DNA of 64,000 bases from Arenicola marina (lineage: Eukaryota; Annelida; Polychaeta; Arenicolidae): NCBI GenBank assembly GCA_964019135.1, contig OZ025248.1, forward strand, positions 55,297,670-55,361,669, read 5' to 3'. The notes beneath the pieces are model-generated. The model searched no databases. It was given only the letters and a program-made list of their open reading frames with translations, and was not told the DNA's origin. How positions within the stretch are numbered: position 1 is the stretch's first letter; each line of letters starts with the position of its first letter. A program made the translations under genes and the position numbers. Below, one piece after another: positions 1,227 through 64,000 of this stretch.

Positions 1227-4200
1227 CTGTGAGAAGGCGAAGAGGTGGGTGGGTGGATTAGTAAGAACATGGTGCACATATACTATGGCTAATGAAAGTA
1301 GCACAATATGATGGTGGTTTGGCATGCGTTAATTAATCGCTGAGCAAGTAAGCTCTGGGGCTGTCCGGTATTTAGCCTGTCGTATTCATGTGCGCTGAGT
1401 TGTTATAATGTTAGTTTTGGGGGCAAAATTGCTTCAGTAGGCGCTGTCACGATGTATAAGGTTAGTTTGTTTTGACAGCTTAATCAATTCAACATGACAG
1501 GCTGAACTTATTGACAGAAGTGACGTCATACTAAAATCTACTCTTGCCGGCCTTTTCCGACCGGTTGCCAAGTTTCAGCGTCCATATTGAGCGACCGGTG
1601 GCTGTTCTGACCAAGATAATGCCCGGAGTCCATTTCCCCATTCACTCATCATGGGCAACCGAGTGCATATAACGAGCAATTTATGCGTTAATCGAGTAAA
1701 ATTAGAATAATTACAGCCTTAAGCGGCCAATTTGGGCTAAACGTGACCTTCAATCGGCAATTTGGGCTCAATAGGGCCTTCATCGAGCAATGCACGCACT
1801 TTAGACTTTCATGAAGGGCAAATGGGGCGCCGCAGGCACTATTTTGAACGCACTGTATAAACCGACATAATTTTATAGGTAAAACCGTGTTTTTACTACC
1901 GTCACTCCTGGAACGGCAAGTAAGATTGGGACGTATTGTTTTTATTATTCAGATGGCCATTCCGCAACTCTTGATGCATTTGGAACTCGATATCTGAAGG
2001 CGTTCGAGTCCAAATTGCCCACTGAAAGCTGTATTGGGCTCGCTGAAAGCTGTATTGGGCTCGCTGAGAGCGCAATTTAACCCAAATTGGACCTCTGGGA
2101 TTCGGACGCTGGATAAACACAATCTAATGGCTGCTGTTCAACGCGGACTGTTTTTCCAGATAGAGGGAGCCATTTCGAGTGAAGGTCACGCCCTAATCCC
2201 TCTTTTCATACTCATCATTGCTAAGCCATCTAGCACCGAAAGTAAGCGTGCTAGGCTAAAAGTCTGCCCGTCTTTTGCAACCAGTCCCGAATCTCTAGCG
2301 TCGCTATTAAGCGAACGGCGGCCATCGCCACCCAAAGGAGTGTCGATATCGCCGTTGACTCATAATGGGAGCGTTAGCACCGAGGGGTGCACCTCTTGCG
2401 AGCGCCATAGCCGCCAAACTAAGCGTCATAACGCAATTCTACATTCAAATCGATGCCGAAAGCCTTCATGTCACGCTTACAAACATTGTTAAACTTGAGC
2501 TTTGGGCCGTCCAGTTGAGCTGTTGCTGGCGGCAAGCTCGCCGTAGAGCACACCCTTTGTTGTTATATACATTACGCCTAGTATAATTGAGAGCGAGCAG
2601 CCACCCAACACTCGACACTGTGTGTGAGTAAATAACGGAGGGGCAATGGGGTGACGTCATTGTGGATATAACTTTACCCAACACTCGACAGGGACACTGT
2701 GCGCGAGTACATAACGGAGGGGCAATGGGGTGACGTCATTGTGGATATACCCAACACTCGACAGGGACACTGTATCCCTACGGTGGACCGAATACTCCCA
2801 TTACGCTTCGGTTCTCCGCCCGACACTTGTTTCACCCGGGTATGTGTGCGCACGCATCCATTTGGTATGTCGATGTGCTCCGTTCAAAACAGCACGGGAC
2901 ATTCGGAAGAAGATGGCGGCTGATTGAAAGGTGATGAGAGAAGGTTGGTTCCTGTGCCCTAACGTGCACCGGATGTGAACGGTGTGTGCATTTCATTGGA
3001 ATAGGCATATCCCTATCGGCAAACTCGGAAGTTCCCTGTCACGTGTTCCGGGCCCGGGGCGGGGTACCAAACCTGGCCCAAAGAAAGGCGCCCACTGTCT
3101 GTGCGTGAATAAATAACGGAGGGGCAATGGGGTGACGTCATTGTGGATATAACTTTACCCAACACTCGACAGGGACACTGTGCGCGAGTAAATAACGGAG
3201 GGACAATGGGGTGACGTCATTGTGGATATACTCAACACTCGACAGGGACACTGTGCGCGAGTACATAACGGAGGGGCAATGGGGTGACGTCATTGTGGAT
3301 ATACCCAACACTCATCAGGGACACTGTGCGTGAATAAATAACGGAGGGGCAATGGGGTGACGTCATTGTGGATATAACTTTACCCAACACTCGACAGGGA
3401 CACTGTGCGCGAGTAAATAACGGAGGGGCAATGGGGTGACGTCATTGTGGATATAACTTTACCCAACACTCGACAGGGACACTGTGCGCGAGTAAATAAC
3501 GGAGGGACAATGGGGTGACGTCATTGTGGATATACAGTTCAAACATGCTATGTTATTAAACCCGGTTAACCACAACGAACATTGCAACACACTTACATTA
3601 ATCAGGTCGATTATGAGGGAGCATTTAAACGTCCAATCCAACTTGATGTCATCGTTGTTCAGAATATCCTGCAAAATAAATTTCTGATGTCATACGTCTT
3701 GCGGCACACATGTTTCTCTCCCGGTAATGTAATTGCAATTGTCAGTATCCTTTTGATTGATGATGAATCGTGATAATAATAATGCCATGAAGTTATTTAG
3801 GGGTGTCATCACACCTTAAGGATTCTTCGGGAGCAGTAGGTCATCAGGATACACAACTGAAGGCATCCTTTGGAGCAGTAGATCATCAGGATACACACCT
3901 TAAGGATTCCTCTGGAGCAGTAGGTCATCAGGATATAAACCTGAAGGCATCCTTTGGAGCAGTAGATCATCAGGATACACACCTTAAGGATTCCTCTGGA
4001 GCAGTAGGTCATCAGGATACTCGCCTTAAGGCTTTCTCTGCAGCTGTAGGTCATCAGGATACTTACCATAAGGGTTCCTCTGGAGCAGTAGTTCATCAGG
4101 ATACTTACCTGGAGGCTTCCGCTGAAACAGTAGGTCATCCGGATACTTACCTGGAGGCTTCCGCTGAAACAGTAGGTCATCCGGATACTCACCTGAAGAC

Positions 4201-7200
4201 TTCCTCTGGAGCAGTAGGTCATCAGGATACTCACCTTAAGGCTTTCTCTGCAGCTGTAGGTCATCAGGATACTTACCATAAGGGTTCCGCTGGAGCAGTA
4301 GGTCATCAGGATACTTACCTGGAGGCTTCCGCTGAAACAGTAGGTCATCCGGATACTCACCTGGAGGCTTCCGCTGAAACAGTAGGTCATCCGGATACTC
4401 ACCTGAAGACTTCCTCTGGAGCAGTAGGTCATCAGGATACTCACCTTAAGGCTTTCTCTGCAGCTGTAGGTCATCAGGATACTTACCATAAGGGTTCCTC
4501 TGGAGCAGTAGGTCATCAGGATACTTACCTGGAGGCTTCCGCTGAAACAGTAGGTCATCCGGATACTCACCTGAAGACTTCCTCTTGAGCAGTAGGTCAT
4601 CAGGATACACACGTTTGGGACGTCCGGGCAACACCCAACGAAGGTTGTTATATTTTCGTGGTTTAGTTGTCGCATCTGCAACAGTTTATTTGCCTGACGT
4701 TATTGACTAAATCTCTTCGTGCAAATTCAAGTTCGAAATATTGTGACTCTCTACAATAATTCAGAAGTGATTCTAGTATAAGAAGCTACCAATGAGAGCA
4801 CATAAGTAATCTGCCACAAAATATAACTGTACTTGAAATGGAACAAAATATTTAGGCACCCATATCTTATGACCTTTACGCAACATCAACATTTACTTTA
4901 ATCAGAACACAAGTAAACATTAGCATTAACCAGAACATATAGTGGCCGGCTTTCCGGCGAAAGATAGAGAACATTCAATAAATATACTTTCATAATTAGG
5001 AAATGCCACAATTTTTGTCAAAGATGCTAAAGTTACATTTATTTAATAATTGGACAAGGATTTTCTAGGTCTAAAAGTGGATGTGGATTGGTTGCACTTA
5101 GCGTTCCATGAGTTAACTAAGGTTAAGTAGTGATTATGAGCACGGGACCGTGACCGACATTAAGACAGCGACGCCACGTGGCTTGATGTCCTACTTACGG
5201 CGTTGAGTTGCGCGTACTCCCTGGCGGTCAGCTTGGTCAGGGTGTTTCCGGCATAGCGAATGGTCACCATGTTGCCCTTGTATACGCCCACCGTGGACGC
5301 CAGCTGCCCCCCGGTCTCAGCGTCAGTGTTGGGGCTCGTCTTCACCGAGGCGGTGGCCGTCCCACCCAGGCTCTGCATGGTGATCTGTCACAGGACATCA
5401 CCATCAGGCGGTGATAAGACTAATTTGTATATCATTATCAATACGGGGCACGGTGGGGGGCAGGGGCGGCTCTATAATTAGCAGCTGACGGGGTGGGATT
5501 GTCAGGTGGGATATGGTCCGTGCTGGTGCCATATTGTCTCTCTTGTAGGCTACTACCAGACACCAGTCTACGGCTCTAAATAATGCTCTGCTATCACCTC
5601 AGTAAAAAAATAGTCAGTATAGATGCTACCCTGAGTTAATTAAAGGAATCTAGAAGATAGTATAATAATATAAAACATATTTAACTAAATAAATAAACGA
5701 CAATACTGTAGACATAAAGACGTTTATACCTTGTTACCCTTAACATGTAAAAAATGTTGTTAGTCGTTAATAATATACATGAACAAGACAGCCGTAGGCT
5801 GAGGTACTGACAGAAGTGACGTCATCTTTGACACACACGTCAGTGGCGTCATTTATGCGACGAAACTATGGTACAGACGATGAAATGCAGAAACACATAT
5901 ACTATAATCTTCCCTTGCCTCATGCTGGCCACACGAGGCCTTCATTTATCAGATGAGGTTTAAACAGTTCCTTCAACGAACAATTTGGGCTCAAACCGCA
6001 ATTTAGCCCAAATTGGACGGATAGTATCCGGATGCTGGATGAGCACAATCTAACGGCTGCTGTTCAATGCGAGCAATTCTATCGCGATTTACGTCAACCT
6101 TACATTTGCCTCTCGCTTCATGCCAAATCTGGGCTCCCTAGATCAAATATTAACCGAGTTATGGCCCTACGAAGTTCAATACGCCGTTTAACGCGATGTG
6201 GACGTCAGTTTTGACGCACACGTTTCGGTACCGCAAAAAAAGTTACGCATCGCAGCAGTTGTCCCTTGATATAAGGTATAGCGTCAAATCAACCGGTAGT
6301 TGCTATGAAGTATAATAGTCGAGTAATAGAGGTTATAAAATTATGACGTCATCACGTCATGGTGACGTCATGGCGTGACGCACGGAAATGTTCAAATATC
6401 TAAACACAAACATTGGTGCCCTCAATCCAAAACGTTGATTAGAACGGCGGTAGGACTCTCAGTTCTTCAGATATAGCTTCATCTAAGTACCGAAAATTGC
6501 TATTGTTCACCATTGCGGATAACTGAAAAACGAGCAGACGAACAAAGGACTCTGCAGCCAAGATAAGAAGGATAATAATGCTTTACTGCCAATAGTAATC
6601 TGGAAACATATCTTCCCTACCATTATACGCAAAGATCGAAAGTCTAGCTAGTTTTTCCGATTTTTGACGAATTTTCTAAGTTAGAGGGAATGTGTATACT
6701 TTATCATTGGGCAAATCTTCGGTTGCCATGGAAACGAAACTGAGCCGCGCGTTTGCCGTCAGCCTACCCTGAGTCTCTTGTACTCGTCCACATCTCGCAC
6801 CGTGGTAAAGCAAAGTGAGATCGCTCAAACGAAAGTAGGTCACATTGAAGGAAGTTTGACTATCTCCATAGGGTCCTATGTTAAACGCGTATGACTATAT
6901 ACCGAAATATTACCGGGCTATGTCGCCGTGTTTATACTTATTGGCTGATCCTACTAGTATCCACCTACAACAGCAAGCATAGAGCGATGGCTTCAATAGG
7001 ACGATCGTGGGAGCCCCTGTAAGCACCAAAAATCCCCATCTTTCACAATAGAGCAAATTTCAAAAAAATCCTGTGACGTCATTTCTTATCCGAATTTCAA
7101 CTAGTAAGGACCATGGTTACCGGGTACCATGTTTATCTAAGGAAAAAATCCCGAAACTGTTTAATCCAGCCTATGAAATACGGGGCAAACAAATTTCCCC

Positions 7201-10200
7201 AGCCTGAGAGATTGAGGGCTTTAACATTGGAGGTCCCATAGGGAATTGCCGTCACCCCTGGAACCGGAAGTAAGATAGGAACATACTATTTTTATAATGC
7301 GGGCAGGCATCGGACCCCATTTCCTACAAAATGACGTCACTCTCGATTTTTAATTTTTTTTTGCCGATTTTTGACGATTTTTTCAATGTACCAAAAGTGA
7401 CGTCATCGTGACGTCAGATGACGCATCCGAAAAATCTCAGATTTCACAAAGCCTATTGCCATTCATATTTCTATGAGAGCCCGGAACACCAAAGCGATAC
7501 CTTCAACCTAAATAGGTCAAACCGAAGAAAAATGGTTCAAGGTCACCTTTTGCGTTTTTCTGAAAATATAAAACGTCATGCCTGCCCGCATTATAAAAAT
7601 AGTATGTTCCTATCTTACTTCCGGTTCCAGGGGTGACGGCAATTCCCTATGGGACCTCCAATGTTAAAGCCCTCAATCTCTCAGGCTGGGGAAATTTGTT
7701 TGCCCCGTATTTCATAGGCTGGATTAAACAGTTTCGGGATTCTTTCCTTAGATAAACATGGTACCCGGTAACCATGGTCCTTACTAGATGAAATTCGGAT
7801 AAGAAATGACGTCACAGGATTTTTTTGAAATTTGCTCTATTGTGAAAGATGGGGATTTTTGGTGCTTACAGGGGCTCCCACGAGCGTCCTATTGAAGCCA
7901 TCGCTCTATGCTTGCTGTTGTAGGTGGATACTAGTAGGATCAGCCAATAAGTATAAACACGGCGACATAGCCCGGTAACTTTTCGGTATATAGTCATACG
8001 CGTTTAACATAGGACCCTATGGGGATAGTCAAACTTCCTTCAATGTGACCTACTTTCGTTTGAGCGATCTCACTTTGCTTTACCACGGTGCGAGATGTGG
8101 ACGATCTGTCACAGGACATCACCATCAGGCGGTGATAAGACTAATTTGTATATCATTATCAATACGGGGCACGGTGGGGGGCAGGGGCGGCTCTATAATT
8201 AGCAGCTGACGGAGTGGGATTGTCAGGTGAGATATGGTCCGTGCTGGTGCCATATTGTCTCTCTTGTAGGCTACTACCAGACACCAGTCTACGGCTCTAA
8301 ATAATGCTCTGCTATCACCTCAGTAAAAAAATAGTCAGTATAGATGCTACCCTGAGTTAATTAAAGGAATCTAGAAGATAGTATAATAATATAAAACATA
8401 TTTAACTAAATAAATAAACGACAATACTGTAGACATAAAGACGTTTTTACCTTGTTACCCTTAACATGTAAAAAATGTTGTTAGTCGTTAATAATATACA
8501 TGAACAAGACAGCCGTAGGCTGAGGTACTGACAGAAGTGACGTCATCTTTGACACACACGTCAGTGGCGTCATTTATGCGACGAAACTATGGTACAGACG
8601 ATGAAATGCAGAAACACATATACTATAATCTTCCCTTGCCTCATGCTGGCCACACGAGGCCTTCATTTATCAGATGAGGTTTAAACAGTTCCTTCAACGA
8701 ACAATTTGGGCTCAAACCGCAATTTAGCCCAAATTGGACGGATAGGATCCGGATGCTGGATGAGCACAATCTAACGGCTGCTGTTCAATGCGAGCAATTC
8801 TATCGCGATTTACGTCAACCTTACATTTGCCTCTCGCTTCATGCCAAATCTGGGCTCCTTAGATCAAATATTAACCGAGTTATGGCCCTACGAAGTTCAA
8901 TACGCCGTTTAACGCGATGTGGACGTCAGTTTTGACGCACACGTTTCGGTACCGCAAAAAAAGTTACGCATCGCAGCAGTTGTCCCTTGATATAAGGTAT
9001 AGCGTCAAATCAACCGGTAGTTGCTATGAAGTATAATAGTCGAGTAATAGAGGTTATAAAATTATGACGTCATCACGTCATAGTGACGTCATGGCGTGAC
9101 GCACGGAAATGTTCAAATATCTAAACACAAACATTGGTGCCCTCAATCCAAAACGTTGATTAGAACGGCGGTAGGACTCTCAGTTCTTCAGATATAGCTT
9201 CATCTAAGTACCGAAAATTGCTATTGTTCACCATTGCGGATAACTGAAAAACGAGCAGACGAACAAAGGACTCTGCAGCCAAGATAAGAAGGATAATAAT
9301 GCTTTACTGCCAATAGTAATCTGGAGACATATCTTCCCTACCATTATACGCAAAGATCGAAAGTCTAGCTAGTTTTTCCGATTTTTGACGAATTTTCTAA
9401 GTTAGAGGGAATGTGTATACTTTATCATTGGGCAAATCTTCGGTTGCCATGGAAACGAAACTGAGCCGCGCGTTTGCCGTCAGCCTACCCTGAGTCTCTT
9501 GTACTCGTCCACATCTCGCACCGTGGTAAAGCAAAGTGAGATCGCTCAAACGAAAGTAGGTCACATTGAAGGAAGTTTGACTATCTCCATAGGGTCCTAT
9601 GTTAAACGCGTATGACTATATACCGAAAAGTTACAGGGCTATGTCGCCGTGTTTATACTTATTGGCTGATCCTACTAGTATCCACCTACAACAGCAAGCA
9701 TAGAGCGATGGCTTCAATAGGACGCTCGTGGGAGCCCCTGTAAGCACCAAAAATCCCCATCTTTCACAATAGAGCAAATTTCAAAAAAATCCTGTGACGT
9801 CATTTCTTATCCGAATTTCATCTAGTAAGGACCATGGTTACCGGGTACCATGTTTATCTAAGGAAAAAATCCCGAAACTGTTTAATCCAGCCTATGAAAT
9901 ACGGGGCAAACTAATTTCCCCAGCCTGAGAGATTGAGGGCTTTAACATTGGAGGTCCCATAGAGAATTGCCGTCACCCCTGGAACCGGAAGTAAGATAGG
10001 AACATACTAGTTTTATAATGCGGGCAGGCATCGGACCCCATTTCCTACAAAATGACGCCACTCTCGATTTTTAATTTTTTTTTGCCGATTTTGACGATTT
10101 TTTCAATGTACCAAAAGTGACGTCATCGTGACGTCAGATGACGCATCCGAAAAATCTCAGCGCGTTATAAGATTTTTCTTCAAAAAATCGCGGTGACCTT

Positions 10201-13200: not shown

Positions 13201-16200
13201 GCAGTGCGCAGCATTTGAGAGCCATTCCTGGGTTCATGACCTTGAGTCAGTGTCTCGTTCAGGGTCAATGCGTATAGGTAGACGGCGTCGTAGAGGAAAG
13301 CTGAATACTCGGAACCCTTGTTAACAAAACGAAAGTAAATGCAAGTTGATATATTTCAAATTATTTGAATGCAAATCCATCTGTGGTTATCTCCTTGTGT
13401 CCATTTATTTCAGACATGCTTACGTAGATGATCGTTTCATTCTTTTAATTTTATTAGCGGAATTCCGTATACCGCGTAGTATTTTTGTTGCCCTTTACTG
13501 GCCCATCCATTCAAAGTTACCAATGCAAAGATTTTTGTAGCCTACTTGTTGTGAATGGGTTATATTCCTTCGTCCAGATACGCCACTGTTTTGTGTGATT
13601 TTTACCGCATTCGACACCACAATTCTTGAGCATGCCCCATTTTCATTGGTATGCACAATTGTCGGTAAAACAACTAATAATCAAACATGTATTTAATATA
13701 CAAATCTAGTAGTATGTAATGAACGTAGTTTATGCAATAGAGAACCCTGAGTTCGTCGACGATCTGAGCAAGCGGAGCCACGACCAGGAAAGACGTTAGC
13801 AATAGTTACTTACAATATTTACAGACGACCTTGCTAAGATCATAGCAATGTTTTTCATACTACTTACGATTTTGCCGGCAGCTAGAGTACCGTTGTAAAA
13901 CCAAGGGGCTTCGGCCATCTTTACCGGAATCTCCTTGCGAAACGCTTCAACGCGCGGCCCAGCCAAAGACGCCAGTGTCACCTTAAATGACATGATATCA
14001 ACAATGTTTAGAGTTAACCAGTATAAATAGCATTAAATCTGAAGGCGGCTAAAATCGTGTAATCTGATCCAAACCGCAATGCCGCCCCTTAAATGTACAA
14101 CCGTTGCCATAGTGACATATTGCGTAGAACAATGAAACAGAAGAATTGTGGTTATAGATTTAATTAAGAAGGCCGAAGGGTTAATCCCATAGGGAACATT
14201 GCATGTGGTTCAAAAATCTAAGATCCGCCTGCGTCCAAGAGTAAGATAGGCGACTATCTGCCAGCTGCCAGTCACCAAACGGGAAGTTTGGGGGACCAGT
14301 TTTTGCAGGGTAACGCTGTGTCACAGATTCGCCTCCGGAAGTTGCCGAGTCGGCACACCTTTGGCAGATGGTCCATTAACTGCGGATGTCTGGGGAAGTC
14401 CCGCTTTTTACCAGCTTTTATAATCTTGCACAACTAAGTAGCGGCGAAGGTATTTTATAGTCACACATCTTGCATCAAGTTTTTGCCCTATAACATTGAT
14501 GCTAAAGGGCATCCTCCCTCCACAAAGAGACACCCTAAGCAAAATAGGGCCCGGAATTAGCTTCATTGATAGGAGATTACGCCCCACATAATAAGACAGG
14601 TGATACACTAGGAGCCACACCTTATACAAAAACATAATGTCAGCATTAGAAGCCATGAAAAGCCCCGACTGATACACGCGCTGATAGGATGAACGCCCTG
14701 TAGATTAAAATGCGCAACATGAAAAAGCGTGCAGGAAGACACGCTCTTTGCCCGAAGCCACACCCTATGACACGACGTATACAGCAAGACACGAACTATA
14801 AAGGGTGACACGACCTATACGGGAAGACACGACGTATACGGCAAGACACAACCTATAAAGGGTGACACGACCTATACGGGAAGACACGGCCTATACGGGA
14901 AGACACGACCTATACGGGAAGACACGACCTATACGGGAAGACACGACCTATACGGGAAGACACGACCTATACGGGAGGACACGACCTATAAGGAAAAACA
15001 CGATGTATACGGCAAGACACGATGCATACGGCAAGACACGACCTATACGGGTAGACACGACCTATAGGGGAATATCCGACTTATAGGGGAACACACGACA
15101 TATAGGGGAAGACACGACCTATAGGGAATACACGATCTATAGGGGAAGACACGACCTATAGGGAAAGACACGACCTATACGGGAAGACACGACCTATAGG
15201 GAAAGACACGATGTATAGGGGAAGACACGACCTATAGGGAAAGACACGATGTATACGGCAAGACACGATGCATACGGCAAGACACGACCTATACGGGTAG
15301 ACACGACCTATAGGGGAATATCCGACTTATAGGGGAGCACACGACCTATAGGGGAAGACACGACCTATAGGGAATACACGATCTATACGGAAAGACACAA
15401 TGTATACGCCAAGACACGACCTATAGGGGAGGACACGATGCATACGGGAAGAAATGACCTATACGGGAAGACACGGCCTATACGGGAAGACACAACCTAT
15501 AGAGGAAGAGACAACCTATAGGGGAAGACACGACCTATAGGGGAAGACACGACCTTTAGGGGGACACGACCTATAGGGGAAGACACGACCTATACGGGAA
15601 GACACGACATATATGGGAAGACACTACCTATACGGAAAGACGTGATCTATAGGGGAAGACACGACCTATACGGGAAGACACGACCTATAGGGGAAGACAC
15701 GACTTATAGGGAAAGCCACGATGTAAACGGCAAGACACGATGTATACCGCAAGACACGACTTATACGGGAAGACACGACCTATACGGGAAGACACGACCT
15801 ATAGGGGAAGAGACGACCTATAGGGGAAGACACGACCTATACGGGTAGACACGACCTATGGGAGAAGACACGACCTATAGGGGAACTCGACATACAGGGG
15901 GACTCGACCTATAGGGGAAGACACGACCTATACGGGAAGACATGATCTATAGGGGAAGACACGACCTATACGGGAAGACACAACCTATAGGGGAAGACAC
16001 GACATATAGGGAATGCCACGATACAAACGGCAAGACACGATGTATACGGCAAGACACGACCTATACGGGAAGACACGACCTATACGGGAAGACACGACCT
16101 ATACGAGAAGACACGACCTATACCGGAATACATGACCTATAGGGGAAGACACGACATATAGGTGAAAACACGACCTATACGGGAAGACACGATGCTTTAC

Positions 16201-19200
16201 GGCAAGACACGATGTATGCGGCACGACGCGACCTACATAAGTAGACACGACCTATAGGGGAATACACGACCTATAGGGGAAGACACGACATATAGGGGAA
16301 GACCCGACATATAAATGAAAACACGACCTATACGGGAAGACACGATGCATACGGCAAGACACGATGTATGCGGCACGACGCGACCTACGTAAGTAGACAC
16401 GACCTATAGGGGAAGACACGACCTATAGGGGAAGACCCCACATATAGGGGAATGTACGACCTATAGGGGAACACACGACCTATAGGGGAGGACACGACCT
16501 ATAGGAAATACACAATCTATAGGGGAAGACACAATCTATAGGGGAAGACACGACCTATACGGGAAGAAACGACCTATATCGGAAGACACGACCTACACGG
16601 GAAGACACGACCTATACGGGAGGACACGACCTATAGGGGGACACGACCTATAGGGGGACACAACCTATTGGGGAAGACACGACCTATAGGGGGACACGAC
16701 CTATAGGGGAAGACATGACCTATACGGGAAGACACGACCTATACGGGAAGACACTACCTATACGGGAAGACACGACCTATAGGGGAAAACACGACCTATA
16801 CGGAAAGACGTGATATATAGGGGAAGACACGACCTATACGGGAAGACACGACCTATAGGGGAAGACACGACTTATAGGGAAAGCCACGATGTAAACGGCA
16901 AGACACGATGTATACGGCAAGACACGACTTATACGGGAAGACACGACCTATACGGGAAGACACGACCTATAGGGGAAGAGACGACCTATAGGGGAAGACA
17001 CGACCTATACGGGTAGACACGACCTATGGGAGAAGACACGACCTATAGGGGAACTCGACATACAGGGGGACTCGACCTATAGGGGAAGACACGACCTATA
17101 CGGGAAGACACTACCTATACGGGAAGACATGATCTATAGGGGAAGACACGACCTATACGGGAAGACACAACCTATAGGGGAAGACACGACATATAGGGAA
17201 TGCCACGATACAAACGGCAAGACACGATGTATACGGCAAGACACGATCTATACGGGAAGACACGACCTATACGGGAAGACACGACCTATACGAGAAGACA
17301 CGACCTATACCGGAATACATGACCTATAGGGGAAGACACGACATATAGGTGAAAACACGACCTATACGGGAAGACACGATGCTTTACGGCAAGACACGAT
17401 GTATGCGGCACGACGCGACCTACATAAGTAGACACGACCTATAGGGGAAGACACAACCTATAGGGAAAGACACGACATATAGGGAATGCCACGATACAAA
17501 CGGCAAGACACGATGTATACGGCAAGACACGACCTATACGGGAAGACACGACCTATACGGGAAGACACGACCTATACGAGAAGACACGACCTATACCGGA
17601 ATACATGACCTATAGGGGAAGACACGACATATAGGTGAAAACACGACCTATACGGGAAGACACGATGCATACGGCAAGACACGATGTATGCGGCACGACG
17701 CGACCTACGTAAGTAGACACGACCTATAGGGGAAGACACGACCTATAGGGGAAGACCCCACATATAGGGGAATGTACGACCTATAGGGGAACACACGACC
17801 TATAGGGGAGGACACGACCTATAGGAAATACACAATCTATAGGGGAAGACACAATCTATAGGGGAAGACACGACCTATACGGGAAGAAACGACCTATATC
17901 GGAAGACACGACCTACACGGGAAGACACGACCTATACGGGAGGACACGACCTATAGGGGGACACGACCTATAGGGGGACACAACCTATTGGGGAAGACAC
18001 GACCTATAGGGGGACACGACTTATAGGGGAAGACATGACCTATACGGGAAGACACGACCTATACGGGAAGACACTACCTATACGGGAAGACACGACCTAT
18101 AGGGGAAGACACGACCTATAGGGAATGCCAAGATGTAAACGGCAAGACACGATGTATACGGCAAGACACGACATATACGGGAAGACACGACCTATACGGG
18201 AAGACACGACCTATACGGGAATGCACGACCTATCGGGGAAGACACGACCTATAGAGGAAGACCCGACATATAGGTGAAAACACGACCTATACGGGAAGAC
18301 ACGGTGTATGCGGCACGACGCGACCTACATAAGTAGACACGACCTATAGGGGAATACACGACCTATAGGGGAAGACACGACCTATAAGAGAAGACACGAC
18401 CTATAGGGGGACACGACCTATAGGGGGATACGACCTATTGGGGAAGACACGACTTATAGGGGGACACGACCTATAGGGGAAGACACGACCTATACGGCAA
18501 GATACGATGCATACGGCAAGAAATGACCTATACGGGAAGACACGACCTATACGGGAAGACACGACCTATAGGCCTATAGATAGATGATCTATAAGCGAAG
18601 ACACCTATAAGGGGAAAAACAACATTAGAGACTTATTGCACTACGTTTTCTGCGGCACTGATACGCACCCCGATCCCTTAGCGCCGATACGTTTACGTTC
18701 CGGTTCTTCGCGCTCGCGCGGCGCACAAATGAGTTGTTGCGGTCGGCTATTTATGTAACGCCCTTTTTGCAAAGTTTCTACCTTCTTTCTGGTATTTATT
18801 TCGGATTTGGATGGCTCGGGAATGGCGGGTGGAAAGTGAGAGAGAGAGTGGGCCGGGGGGGGGGGAGGGCGTGGGGAGATGAGAGGGGTGCTGGTCTAAA
18901 TGTCGTGGACATGCGGTTTCTATTGTGTTATCTAAAGAGGAAGTCCTAGGTATTGTTATGTATAATCATGTTATTTGGGGAAAGAAATTGCAAATGGTAA
19001 TGCTTCTTTGTGAGGAGAGTGTTTATAGGAAACTTGAGTTGCTGAAATTATAAGCAACCCACCATTTTCCATTGTCTCTCTTTCTATAGTGCGGTCAGTC
19101 TTAGTAGCAGTTATAAACACACATAAATGTTTCAACAACGCTGGTGGTCGAGTTTTACTGGTCTGTGCGGCATTGTGCACTGGGTGACTGGCCACTGCGC

Positions 19201-47164: not shown

Positions 47165-47305
47165 AGTGGTAAGTGGTAAGTGGTGTGTGGTATGTTGTAA
47201 GTGGTAAGTGGTGTGTGGTATGTTGTAAGTGGTAAGTGGTGTGTGGTATGTGGTAAGTGGTAAGTGGTGTGTGGTATGTGGTAAGTGGTAAGTGGTGTGT
47301 GGTGA
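47165..47305. repeat. 28-bp GT-rich tandem repeat, about five copies
   Basis: Unit GTGGTGTGTGGTATGTTGTA plus AGTGGTAA, with G/T variation. Confidence 0.88.
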
Positions 47306-59833: not shown

Positions 59834-61509
59834 ATGGTTAAGAACAAAGGTAAAAGTAAAAGTAAAGCTAAGGTTGCTGAGCCTGCGACTGTGATTACAA
59901 GCGGTGTTACAAAAGCAGTAGATCTAGATAAAATGGATGTAGAACACGCTCATGGGGATTCTACCCAGTCATATCTCCGAGGTGGGGGAAGCATATACTC
60001 GAGCCATTATAGTCCTTATTGCAAGAGAAGGGAGAGTTCATTTGGAATGATACTACCCAATGCACATTCGAGGAAATTGTAGGAAGTTTGGCCAAGGTGA
60101 TTCCATGGCAAATGCCCGATGCGATTTCAAAGGAATGTGACATGCATGAGGTTGGTTCATCTCTGAGTAAGGCGACAGTGTCCCATGGAAATAAAGGTCA
60201 CCCTGTGGGTGAGCCTAACAGGTGCACAGTGGATAATGGAATCGTTACTACAGTTAAGGCTGCGGTCCAGGGGGCATTGAAGGAAATGTGGCCGGGCCAT
60301 ATGCCGGGTGGACGTAGTGCTGTAAGTGAGAGTTTTCACTGTCAAGGACAACGGTCAAATGACAGAGCTCGTGGGAGTTATCAAGAGCGGGAAGGTAGAC
60401 GATCTACTAGTAAAGGAGCGTTAAGAAGAAATTATACAGATAGTAGTTCTAGTCTTTCGGACTCCTCAAGTATCGAGAGTGATAGCGAGGTCAGCATACC
60501 GACAAGCCGAGTAATACGGGATTCAAACCGTTTCCATGGCAATGTAAAGTTGCCCAACTACACGGGGAAAGAGTCATGGAAGGTGTGGTTCAATAGATTT
60601 ATAGAAATTGCAGACAGACATGATTGGGGGGAGGAACAAAAGTTAGATGAACTGCTTCCCCGACTACAAGGTGGTGCGGGAGATTTTGTCTTTGGTCAGT
60701 TGCCGAGGAGAGCAAGATCTAGCTTTCGCTCTCTGGTGAACGAGCTTGATAGCAGATACAGGGTGGTAGAAACTACAAAGGGCTATAGTGTGCAGTTTAG
60801 TCGTAGGTCTCAACAACCGGGCGAATCCATTGAGGATTATGCTGCTGACTTGAAGCGTCTTTATGACAAAGCCTTTCTAAACAGAGATGTACAAACCAGA
60901 CGCGAAGATTTCTTGCGTCGGTTTCTAGATGGGTTAAAAGATGATCGCGCTAGCTTCCAAGTGGAGTATATCAAGGACCCGAAGAACATCGATGACGCAG
61001 TCTTTGAGGTAGTTAACCTAATGGAAACTAAAAGGAGAGCCGGTAGAGAGATTGTGACTAATGGTGAACCTACCAGTTCCTTACGATATTTGAGTTATGG
61101 TGACGCTGATGCTAATGAATTTGAGGAAGGACAATCAGAGGGTAGAGCTCGCAGAGCACCCATTAAACCCACATGTGTGGCAAATGACAAAGTTCCCACC
61201 ATATCAGAACTTGAGTCAAATGTACCAGGGTAAGTGCGGAATCAGGCGTTAGAGAAACAAATCGTAGAGCTTCAAAAACGGTTGGCTGAGCTAGAACGAA
61301 ATAATAAAAGTAAACAAACTCCTTTTAGCCCATGGGCTAAACAGGGTAGGAAATGCTATACCTGTGGGGGAGAAGGCCATTTTGCAAGAAATTGCCTAGA
61401 GCAGGGAGCAAGTGGTAAAAGGAAAGATGCATATGGTGCTAACGTAAAGCGAAATGTAGGGGATGAGCATTTAAACCGGACAGGGCTCACCCAGCAGGCC
61501 AACGGGTAA
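59834..61509 (+). pseudogene. gag: gag of the Ty3/gypsy element, with a frame break and an in-frame stop
   Basis: An ATG at 59834 opens a basic start (MVKNKGKSKSKAK). That frame ends at 60082, while the main frame is open from at least 60019 to 61233, so one frame shift lies near 60000-60020. The middle part (VKLPNYTGKESWKVWFNRFI, later RSQQPGESIEDYAADL) is a retrotransposon capsid domain. A TAA at 61231-61233 interrupts the frame before a coiled stretch (LEKQIVELQKRLAELER) and the zinc knuckle CYTCGGEGHFARNC (CCHC, 61354-61395). The last stop is at 61507-61509. Gag builds the particle and the knuckle binds RNA. This copy could make at most truncated pieces. Confidence 0.88.
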
Positions 61510-64000
61510 GCTCAATTCCAGATGGCCACAAACAAATAGGATCAAAGGCGTCTAAAAGTAAATCAAAAGCAGGCGGGGTACGAATAAATACAGTCAAAAG
61601 AAAGTTGCCTATATACCATGGGATTTATGTGGCAGGTTCTGTGCAGAATGTAGATCTGTATTTCACTGCCGATACGGGCGCCACAAGGACTATTCTCGCA
61701 AGTAAAGTATACCACAACATGGCGGCTGCTGAGCGGCCGGAGCTGACACCGTCGGGTTGTCTTAAAGGTGCTGGCGGCAATCCACTCAAGGAATTGGGTA
61801 AAGGTATATTTAAAATAGAAGTGGGACCTTTAAGCCTTGAAAAAGAGCTCATATTGGCCGAGATAGAGGATGCCGGTCTGCTCGGAGTTGATATACTCCA
61901 GCAAGATGCCGGTGGTCCAGCCGATTTAATGCCGAGTGAGGGAATCATAAAGCTATGTGGAAAAGATATCCCTTGTATTCAGGTTTTACCCAAAGCAGTA
62001 CGCAAGGTCAGCTCAGCTGATGGTTACCAAATTCCCCCTTTTAGTGAGGCATTACTAGACTGTTATGTAGCTAGGGAGGTGAGGGATGATATCCTTCCAA
62101 ACATGGATATGATTATAGAGCCGACGTCTCACTTTAAGGCAACCTACCCTTTGATAATGGCAGACACCCTGGTTGATATAAGGTATGACGCCACGGTTAA
62201 GGTGAGGGCGATTAACCCAACATCGAAGGAGGTTTTGGTAAAGCAAAATGCGGTATTAGGACAGGCCTATGCTATAAAAGAGAGTCCACAAGTATTGTTC
62301 GACGTTGAAGATATTAGGGACGCCAACAATTATGACTTAGTGAGGAGGACAGCGCCTGTAGAGCAACGGATCGAAAACCAGAAATTGGATCCGACGAGAC
62401 GTAGTTATGCCAAAAAGGACAAGGATATCCCTGAACATTTACAGGCTATGTGTGAGGAGGCTAGTAACTCTAAATCACCAGAACAGGTGATGGCCATCAA
62501 AAGTATGCTGACACAATATGAAGATGTTTTTTCTAAAGATGATACTGACCTTGGTCTTACTACATTGACAGAGCATGTAATAGATACAGGTGATGCTAGA
62601 CCGGTTAAACAAGCACCGAGACGTGTGCCTCTAGCTTTTGAAGGGGAAGAGAAAGAAGCTATCATGACTCTACAAAAACAGAAAGTGATACGGCCGTCAA
62701 CATCCCCTTGGGCCAGTCCACTGGTACTTGTGAGGAAGAAGAATGGAAGAAAGGTCACTAAACCAGACGCTTATGCCATTCCAAGGACGCAGACTTGCCT
62801 CGATGCAGTCGCTAGTTCAGTATTATTTTCTACCTTTGATTTAACATCCGGGTACTATCAGGTACCGGTCAAAGAAGACGATATTCATAAAACTGCCTTC
62901 ACATCTAAATACGGCTTGTTCGAGTTTACAGCAATGCCATTTGGGCTCAGTAATTCGCCGGGTTCCTTCCAGAGAGTTACGGAGATGGCTTTGCGGGGTT
63001 TACAATGGGTGACATGTCTGATCTATCTTGATGATGTTATTGTGTTTTCTAGCACTTTCGAGGAGCATATTCAAAGAGTAAAAAAGGTATTCGATAGATT
63101 GAGGTATGCGAATTTTAAGCTCAAAGCAGAAAAATGTCACATATTTCAAGAAGAGGTAGAGTTTTTAGGTCATGTCGTGTCTGCCAGAGGACTAAGCCCC
63201 ACGTTGCATAACATAGCGAAGATACTTAACTTCCCAGTACCGACGAATGTCAGTGAGGTACGTCAGATTGTGGGCATGGGAAGTTACTATCGCAGGTTTG
63301 TGAAGGATTTCGCGGAGATAACAAGACCTCTCGTTGACTTAACAAAGAAGGATGTAGCCTTTAAGTGGACATCAAAATGTCAGAAAGCGCTCCAAACTTT
63401 AAAACTAGCACTAACAGGCCCAGAGGTCATGGCATACCCACAAAATGAGGGTGAATATATACTTGATACCGATGCAAGCGATGTGGCCATAGGAGGTGTG
63501 TTATCACAGGTCCAGAACGGGCAAGAGCGGGTGATAGCATATGCTAGTCGAGCGCTTAATCGCGCTGAGAGAAACTATTGTGTGACCGATCGCGAGCTTT
63601 TAGCGCTCAGGTATTTTGTAGAATATTTCCGTCACTACCTGTTAGGTAGACACTTTCTCGTCAGAACTGATCATCAGGCACTGATATGGTTGTTCAGTCT
63701 GAAGGAACCAAAAAATCGCATAGCCAGGTGGTTAGAGATACTGTCCGTGTATGATTTTGCGGTTCAGTATCGACCTGGAAAGAAACACGAAAATGCAGAC
63801 TTTATGTCCAGGTGTCCTAACCCTAAAGATTGCCAATGCCCCGATGTTTATTCATTAGAAGAACTTAAATGCGGACCTTGTAAGAAATGTAAGAAGAGAG
63901 CAAGCGAAATGAGAAGTGAATTTCCAGTCACAACAGTCGTTAAAAGGGTTAGTTCAAGCCAGACAGAGGGTGGTTTGGTTTATAAGAAATGTAATGCCAT
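61467..64000 (+). CDS. pol: pol of the Ty3/gypsy element: protease, reverse transcriptase (internal deletion), RNase H; partial
   Basis: One frame without stops to the window end, in the -1 frame relative to gag and without its own start codon. Protease: FTADTGATRTIL (DTGA active site) near 61670, with GLLGVDILQ downstream. Reverse transcriptase: TSPWASPLVLVRKKNG, then FDLTSGYYQ, FTAMPFGLSNSP, LIYLDDVIVF (catalytic YLDD near 63030), VEFLGHVVS. Between KKNGR and KVTKPDAY the conserved block with the CVDYR-type motif is missing, about a dozen residues without a frame change. RNase H: LDTDASDVAIGGVLSQ, RELLALRYFVE, RTDHQAL. A cysteine-rich linker (CPNPKDCQCPD, CGPCKKCKK) leads toward integrase, which is outside. 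The product would copy element RNA into DNA, but the deletion should inactivate it. Confidence 0.93.
61470..61527 (+). promoter_or_regulatory. -1 ribosomal frameshift signal between gag and pol
   Basis: TTTAAAC at 61470-61476 is read in the gag frame as (CA)T TTA AAC, the canonical X-XXY-YYZ heptamer. After 6 nt, GGGCTCACCC (61483-61492) pairs with GGGTAAGCTC (61504-61513) in 9 of 10 positions including one G-U. The loop GGCCA (61497-61501) can pair with TGGCC (61523-61527) to give a pseudoknot. The pol frame is open from 61467, so slippage joins gag to pol, and the gag stop lies inside the stem. Confidence 0.75.

Follow-up and report, generated by a model that had tools for sequence, protein, structure and literature searches.

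A mirage-type minisatellite carrying rows of 5' splice sites in a receptor guanylate cyclase gene of Arenicola marina, with similar arrays elsewhere in the genome

The closest described relatives of the element reported here are the 'mirage' minisatellites of amphioxus, found in Adh3, the globins BflGb6 and BflGb9, and TnC (compare also PGBD5), and said to leave regular splicing undisturbed (PMC3087553, PMC3902484). We analyzed a stretch of 64,000 nucleotides from the annelid Arenicola marina (GenBank assembly GCA_964019135.1, contig OZ025248.1, positions 55,297,670 to 55,361,669; hereafter the window), in which a receptor guanylate cyclase gene on the minus strand carries an array of 42-bp units at the end of its exon 12. 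This array is a minisatellite-like repeat that overlaps an exon–intron border and repeats its splice signals—it is real, it belongs with the mirages, and the same annelid genome holds many further cases, with a bias towards the donor side. The account we favor, and consider likely, is that of a border minisatellite of the mirage kind, which originated at a short repeat and is removed passively with the intron from the first donor.

Several features set the annelid arrays apart from those of amphioxus, a cephalochordate. They reach up to 76 units (locus L008) and show a strong donor-side bias, whereas both borders are affected in the amphioxus globins; moreover, the unit in the window appears to be purely exonic, with its donor gained by mutation. 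Among the open-licence papers searched, the two found to use the name mirage deal with cephalochordates, and no report of a mirage in an annelid was found; the related repeats found in such papers were human boundary repeats and intronic minisatellites of earthworm metallothionein. According to the available part of PMC2812944, the human repeats, which occur in segmental-duplication genes, resemble ours as minisatellites (of ~30 bp) that lie on a border and change intron/exon structure, but they go together with novel introns and with alternative transcripts, whereas the intron position here is conserved and the array is known from DNA alone. The minigenes of PMC9225289 (available part) hold two identical CAG/guaagu donors 52 nt apart—a likeness limited by their being laboratory constructs with two donors, as opposed to the 13 natural ones of the window. 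Earthworm metallothionein is likewise an annelid gene with large minisatellites, placed in its first intron, and its exon-4 duplications do not show up in the final transcript; its repeats lie inside the intron, and no copied donors are described in the part of PMC12783039 at hand. Finally, CeRep25B of C. elegans is an intronic minisatellite linked to alternative splicing, whose units bear splicing regulatory motifs and for which the available text of PMC4039745 describes no donor array.

The 42-bp array and its host gene

Tandem Repeats Finder (TRF) covers positions 3812-4612 with a period of 42 (19.1 copies, 85% matches, score 1028) and a second period of 210 (3.8 copies, 91% matches), and a unit-by-unit alignment places the exon ends at 4571-42k, with k running from 0 to 18. 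Both confirm what a first-pass annotation had claimed from the sequence, i.e., 18 units of 42 bp at an exon–intron border; the array sets in 42 nt within exon 12. The 13 consecutive consensus donors of that annotation also stand, as borders k = 0-12 all read NNG/GTRAGT (a slash marks the splice border throughout), with four distinct nine-base donors among them and scores of 10.5-12.7 on a donor scoring matrix, i.e., near equal strength. Borders k = 13-18 read GCGAGT, GTGTGT, GTTTAT, GTGTGT, TTGTGT and GTGTGA, the last being the start of the remaining intron, and the donor GT is kept at 17 of the 19 array borders. The units also carry acceptor-like CAG ends.

Units 1-13 comprise seven distinct sequences, which fall into four types arranged BCD-ABBCD-ABBCD, while the five distal units form another set. 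This order matches the 210-bp TRF period and describes a higher-order repeat; since only seven sequences underlie them, the 13 donors are not independent observations. Including the exon copy, the 19 units represent 12 distinct sequences, joined by a minimum spanning tree of 38 changes. Unit 4 is identical to 9, unit 3 to 8 and 13, and unit 1 to 5, 6 and 10, which suggests recent change, and such identical copies in 210-bp blocks are signs of the unequal exchange that had been proposed.

The host gene was correctly recognized as a receptor guanylate cyclase, judging from PDB and Pfam matches plus shared exons. By phmmer, exon 12 matches residues 555-589 of the atrial natriuretic peptide receptor 1 (9bcv_A, E 6.2e-9), and an exon 12-like segment is present in 19 of 19 other long loci compared. 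Kinase-homology exons continue down to ~1.0 kb of the window in an all-against-all comparison of loci; the numbers 11, 12 and 13 are those of the first-pass annotation. Intron 11 measures 523 nt, exon 12 105 nt and intron 12 902 nt, 756 nt of which belong to the array. The features are as follows.

4571..4675, minus strand: exon 12 (MRQLNHENITTFVGCCPDVPNVCILMTYCSRGSLQ), kinase-homology domain (phmmer)
4571..4612, minus strand: seed, a 42-mer within exon 12 (VCILMTYCSRGSLQ) homologous to the whole array unit; 2 of 42 sites differ from unit 4
4607..4612, minus strand: exonic GTGTGT (Val-Cys), a donor-like hexamer at exon position -42 (sequence; Ile-Cys in 9bcv_A)
3815..4570, minus strand: array, 18 further 42-bp units after exon 12 (TRF and unit table)
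4061..4573, minus strand: 13 proximal borders, all NNG/GTRAGT, exon ends 4571 to 4067 (unit table)
3809..4027, minus strand: six distal borders, T at +4 in five of six, exon ends 4025 to 3815 (unit table)
3669..3814, minus strand: rest of intron 12, 146 nt, beginning GTGTGATGACACC (sequence)
3597..3668, minus strand: exon 13 (DILNNDDIKLDWTFKCSLIIDLIN), recognized by its acceptor (TTTTGCAG/GAT) and by similar segments at 19 other loci
5199..5384, minus strand, 5' edge approximate: exon 11, which precedes the array exon and ends GCC/GTAAGT
20817-20407 and 13355-13149, minus strand: ANF-receptor exons (Pfam PF01094)

Other repeats occur in the window. A 19-bp unit forms a 3.8-kb array of ~200 copies (81% matches) at 14769-18570, between exons of the receptor gene, and 79-bp tandem repeats at 2614-3534 start ~60 nt beyond the exon 13 donor, being intronic without spanning the border. 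A stretch of ~2 kb is found twice, ~2.7 kb apart, at ~5400-10070 (with the same peptides at 5407-7349 and 8128-10070), and inverted copies at 7.1-7.9 kb lie between the duplicates—by appearance, nested mobile elements. Open reading frames resembling those of a long terminal repeat retrotransposon (gag, then protease, reverse transcriptase and RNase H) occupy 60013-63998 and reach the window end, and a GTAAGT-rich 7/28-bp array (GTGGTAAGTGGTAAGTGG) lies at 47165-47303.

Origin of the repeat unit

The last 42 bases of exon 12 run GTGTGT ATCCTGATG...CTTCAG, differing from unit 4 at two sites. The full 42-mer, with its leading GTGTGT, is thus already inside the exon and ahead of the donor, which speaks against the earlier description of the unit as an exon end joined to an intron start. 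Since the PDB receptor 9bcv_A has PNICILTEYCPRGSLQ where exon 12 has PNVCILMTYCSRGSLQ, Val-Cys can be regarded as ordinary exon sequence. Moreover, a GTGTG word lies on either side of the duplicated stretch, in the exon and at the start of the intron, the arrangement that mispairing at a short repeat should leave. From the sequence, we infer the following order of events. A stretch of 42 nt in exon 12, from GTGTGT to the last base, would have been duplicated beside itself, probably via mispairing of the exonic GTGTG with that at the intron start, so that each copy would abut CAG again and resemble a donor; in one lineage of copies, GTGTGT would later have become GTGAGT by a T>A change, giving consensus donors, blocks of which may then have been amplified by slippage or unequal exchange.

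An alternative, unlikely on balance, is that the unit does consist of the exon end plus six intron bases, the intron having begun with GTGAGT and the distal copies having decayed. Units of 60, 63 and 66 bp elsewhere in the genome do hold intron sequence, and A at +4 is commoner among the listed donors of other genes; however, exon 12 contains the complete 42-mer, and the distal borders and the start of the remaining intron share T at +4 with the exon. A single gain followed by amplification, rather than retention, is the probable source of the proximal consensus donors, because one proximal T>A suffices, whereas decay requires the T of the exon to re-arise both distally and at the intron start. 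The view that the six distal borders are decayed is therefore probably wrong, five of them sharing the exonic T, and of the two explanations offered for the proximal consensus, younger units fit better than selection.

Additional evidence for a short-repeat origin comes from locus L019, where a 66-bp unit is repeated six times at 1585-1984. This unit consists of 61 exon bases plus GTGAG, with copies ending CAG/GTGAGGCA, and reaches from one GGCA within the exon to another immediately behind the donor GTGAGGCA—the same short-repeat logic as in the window, which strengthens this origin. Every 66-bp unit contains an in-frame stop, which makes L019 better suited than the window array to show whether the first donor is the one used. 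Furthermore, in the 18 genes whose GSLQ (or equivalent) is followed by an intron, GTGTGT at exon position -42 is restricted to the window and L011, and exon-12 arrays occur in both of these as opposed to one of the 16 others (L025; Fisher p 0.020), an association that is suggestive and made up of two cases only.

Arrays at other loci and across the genome

The assembly searched comprises 867 Mb in 762 contigs (45-46% G+C in the DNA examined). COX1 on its contig C762 is closest to that of Pilargis wolfi (91% identical, as opposed to 82-90% for other annelids and 82-84% for gastropods among the 120 matches listed of 7999), and the gene order nad3-nad2-cox1-cox2-atp8-cox3, with genes named by eye, is that of annelids; the host is accordingly a polychaete annelid, by this comparison most likely of Phyllodocida, and an amphioxus host, which the mirage literature had brought to mind, was rejected. 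In this assembly, the exon-12 protein matches 25 places, the window included. Nineteen of the 24 others were fetched with 9-20 kb (extra flanks for two), and the remaining five with 1.5-kb flanks only. The 20 long loci were taken as guanylate cyclases from shared exons alone, and L023 resembles an ordinary kinase. Conserved segments came from an all-against-all comparison of these 20 loci and arrays from TRF; as uncurated exon proxies, 95 (support in at least nine loci) or 130 (at least five) conserved sense segments were available. Donor-spanning arrays were found at 10 of the 25 loci, or 9 of 24 without the window.

Window: exon 12, 42 bp
L011: exon 12, 63 bp x 60 (42 exon + 21 intron), mostly CCG/GTAACT
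L008: exon 11, 60 bp x 76, GAG/GTAAGT at most borders
L010: exon 13, 55 bp x 19-20
L015: exon 14, 37 bp x 5
L020: exon 14, 43 bp x 15
L014: 21 bp x 12
L022: catalytic exon, 31 bp, at least 6 units, GTACGC
L025: exon 12, 46 bp x 3
L019: border other than GSLQ, 66 bp x 6

An acceptor-spanning array was seen in one possible case (L045 1781-1970, three units, acceptor position unpinned), giving a donor-to-acceptor ratio of 10:1 (p 0.012), or 9:1 without the window (p 0.021); L019 and L025, found by scanning the five loci with 1.5-kb flanks, strengthened this bias. Left out of the count were the arrays of L037, L038, L041 and L046, which start inside an intron without a donor copy, and that of L024, well inside its intron; the border at L018 is spanned by no array. 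A 44-bp unit with ~108 copies (CAG or CGG/GTGAGT) covers L044 and L048 (C7:12,100,600-12,105,400), upstream of the exons of another locus; it was not counted, as no exon was recognized at its start. Exon-12 arrays are likely, though not proven, to have arisen separately, because L011 groups with L004, which has no array (support 90/90, though the tree, which covers 17 of the 25 loci, is weakly resolved).

The 42-, 63- and 60-bp units had made a multiple-of-three filter on array survival look promising, but it failed over the 10 arrays: 42, 63, 60, 21 and 66 bp are multiples of three, whereas 55, 37, 43, 31 and 46 bp are not (5/10, p 0.21). The proportion becomes 6/11 (p 0.12) upon inclusion of a 39-bp array in an ALDH1L1-type gene, which emerged from a wider search. 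In this search, runs of three CAGGTRAGT spaced 24-54 bp apart gave 4975 genome matches versus 1409 for the reversed pattern, and a stricter form 379 versus 106, the 100 matches listed for the latter representing three loci, mostly one. The first 100 donor-triplet matches fall into four loci within 1.75 Mb of contig C1, and the first 100 control matches into two loci on all of C1 and four on the first 23.7 Mb of C2. Counted roughly by locus, over the first 100 matches each, this gives four donor-array loci for the initial 1.75 Mb of C1 and six control loci for 100.7 Mb, with the caveats that repeats may be dense at the end of C1 and that one unit is common to three of the C2 control loci; the units of the control loci also include GGTGAGTGG or GGTAAGAC.

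One of the C1 arrays is headed by the ALDH1L1-type exon (ladlmdehkeel...yfagwcdkiQ/GTAAGT, E 4.6e-24 to 7yjj), followed by 39-bp donor triplets over ~6.5 kb with an unread gap near 609-611 kb. A second begins at an exon that is probably lustrin-type (24.8 bits, short of the Pfam cut-off of 27), and for the remaining two the 0.8 kb fetched lies entirely inside the array. The acceptor pattern gave 1479 matches versus 729 reversed, the 100 listed representing four loci, all of which also read CAG/GT. In 246 kb scanned, five of 94 array consensus units score at least 10 as donors (shuffle mean 1.8, maximum 4 in 30 shuffles; reversed 0), a weak enrichment; the 94 arrays total 53,855 of the 246,018 bases examined. 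Two arrays 1 Mb apart on C3 (2286213-2288094 and 3303360-3305389) share one 47-bp unit, TTTTACAG/GTGTGT, with an acceptor-like and a donor-like word in every unit listed. A broader notion is that 5' splice sites are favored birthplaces of minisatellites throughout the genome and that the donor rows are non-neutral, either as platforms for U1 or as a reservoir of in-frame length variants differing between alleles—a notion we regard as decidedly unlikely.

Donor choice and the fate of the array

The favored account of a border minisatellite removed from the first donor would work through exon definition: the splicing machinery would define exon 12 and choose the 5'-most of the equal donors, at 4571, so that the whole array would leave as intron and the protein would stay unchanged. 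Such removal is expected because donor 4571 comes first and is as strong as any, and because both introns are long. Under exon definition, the upstream of the two minigene donors is used exclusively, and competing 3' sites lean upstream, though less strongly in that mode (PMC9225289, available part). Donor-side arrays may thus be tolerated and can grow, while acceptor-side copies would mostly be purged, as an upstream copy would lengthen the exon; by the first-donor rule, duplicating an acceptor would do harm, and the bias towards donors would follow from this.

A number of points weigh against this account. The same part of PMC9225289 reports that the downstream donor is preferred in ~60% of human 5' competition events and that intron definition favors the downstream donor even at equal strength; without the array, intron 12 is ~146 nt, which would be short enough for intron definition. 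Exclusive use of donor 1 is proposed by analogy with minigenes, the amphioxus globin paper allows that mirage copies could serve as cryptic sites (PMC3087553), and human exon–intron boundary repeats often give alternative transcripts (PMC2812944, available part). Several arrays, that of the window among them, keep the phase and an open frame. With regard to the origin, L025 carries an exon-12 array without exonic GTGTGT, which breaks the exact coincidence and weakens the link, and this link could also run in reverse, with copies converting the exon. Finally, as given below, GT mismatches fall short of expectation, which hints at donor constraint or young copies.

The first-pass annotation had proposed a length-variable splicing module, in which several donors are used and n x 14 residues are added at the hinge of the kinase-homology domain. 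For the receptor gene, phase and donor strength make this possible, but we judge it quite improbable. In its favor, the near-equal donors 1-13 stand in phase 0, as had been stated: exon 12 ends and exon 13 starts at a codon border, and the frame is open from exon 12 to 3 nt beyond the last border, with the first stop +759 nt from donor 1. In addition, 27 human intron modifications at boundary repeats are reported, 66% of which also have repeat-retaining transcripts (PMC2812944, available part). However, the chance of a stop-free array under neutral change is ~0.16, so the open frame is unremarkable, and the ratio of nonsynonymous to synonymous change (pN/pS, from pairwise counts with no significance test) is 0.67 for the distinct proximal units and 0.75 for all distinct units, which is near neutral and leaves strong constraint on the inserted codons unsupported. 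Frame-breaking units occur in five of the 10 arrays (31, 37, 43, 46 and 55 bp), the L019 unit has its in-frame stop, donor columns show no significant constraint, and the minigenes with strong sites use the upstream donor.

It is highly improbable that the donor rows act as RNA, their many U1 sites strengthening exon definition or shielding a long intron from premature 3' end formation. The donor GT is kept at 207 of 213 borders in eight arrays, and donor triplets exceed the reversed control genome-wide; however, the donors of L011 and L022 are both weak, and donor variants are not significantly depleted. In a test on the 190 units of these eight arrays by random rotation (exon borders, odd-length units, L019 and L025 left out), GT variants numbered 6 against 7.9 expected (P 0.28) and nine-base donor variants 34 against 35.6 (P 0.42); counted as mismatches, the values are 6 against 19 (P 0.07) and 100 against 87 (P 0.75). 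An assembly artefact is scarcely credible even for tandem arrays, which are hard to assemble, given that the array has a single match in the assembly, that its varied units form higher-order blocks and that arrays of this class recur in further genes, spread over several chromosomes.

Rows of equal donors following a single exon, found in many genes of one genome, amount to a natural in vivo test of the choice among identical 5' splice sites. If only the first donor is used, even where units break the frame, then the exon-definition rule known from minigenes holds widely; if true, the first-donor rule accounts for the contrast between amplified donor borders and unamplified acceptor borders. 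A bristle worm with many mirages would, in turn, show that the process recurs in distant animals.

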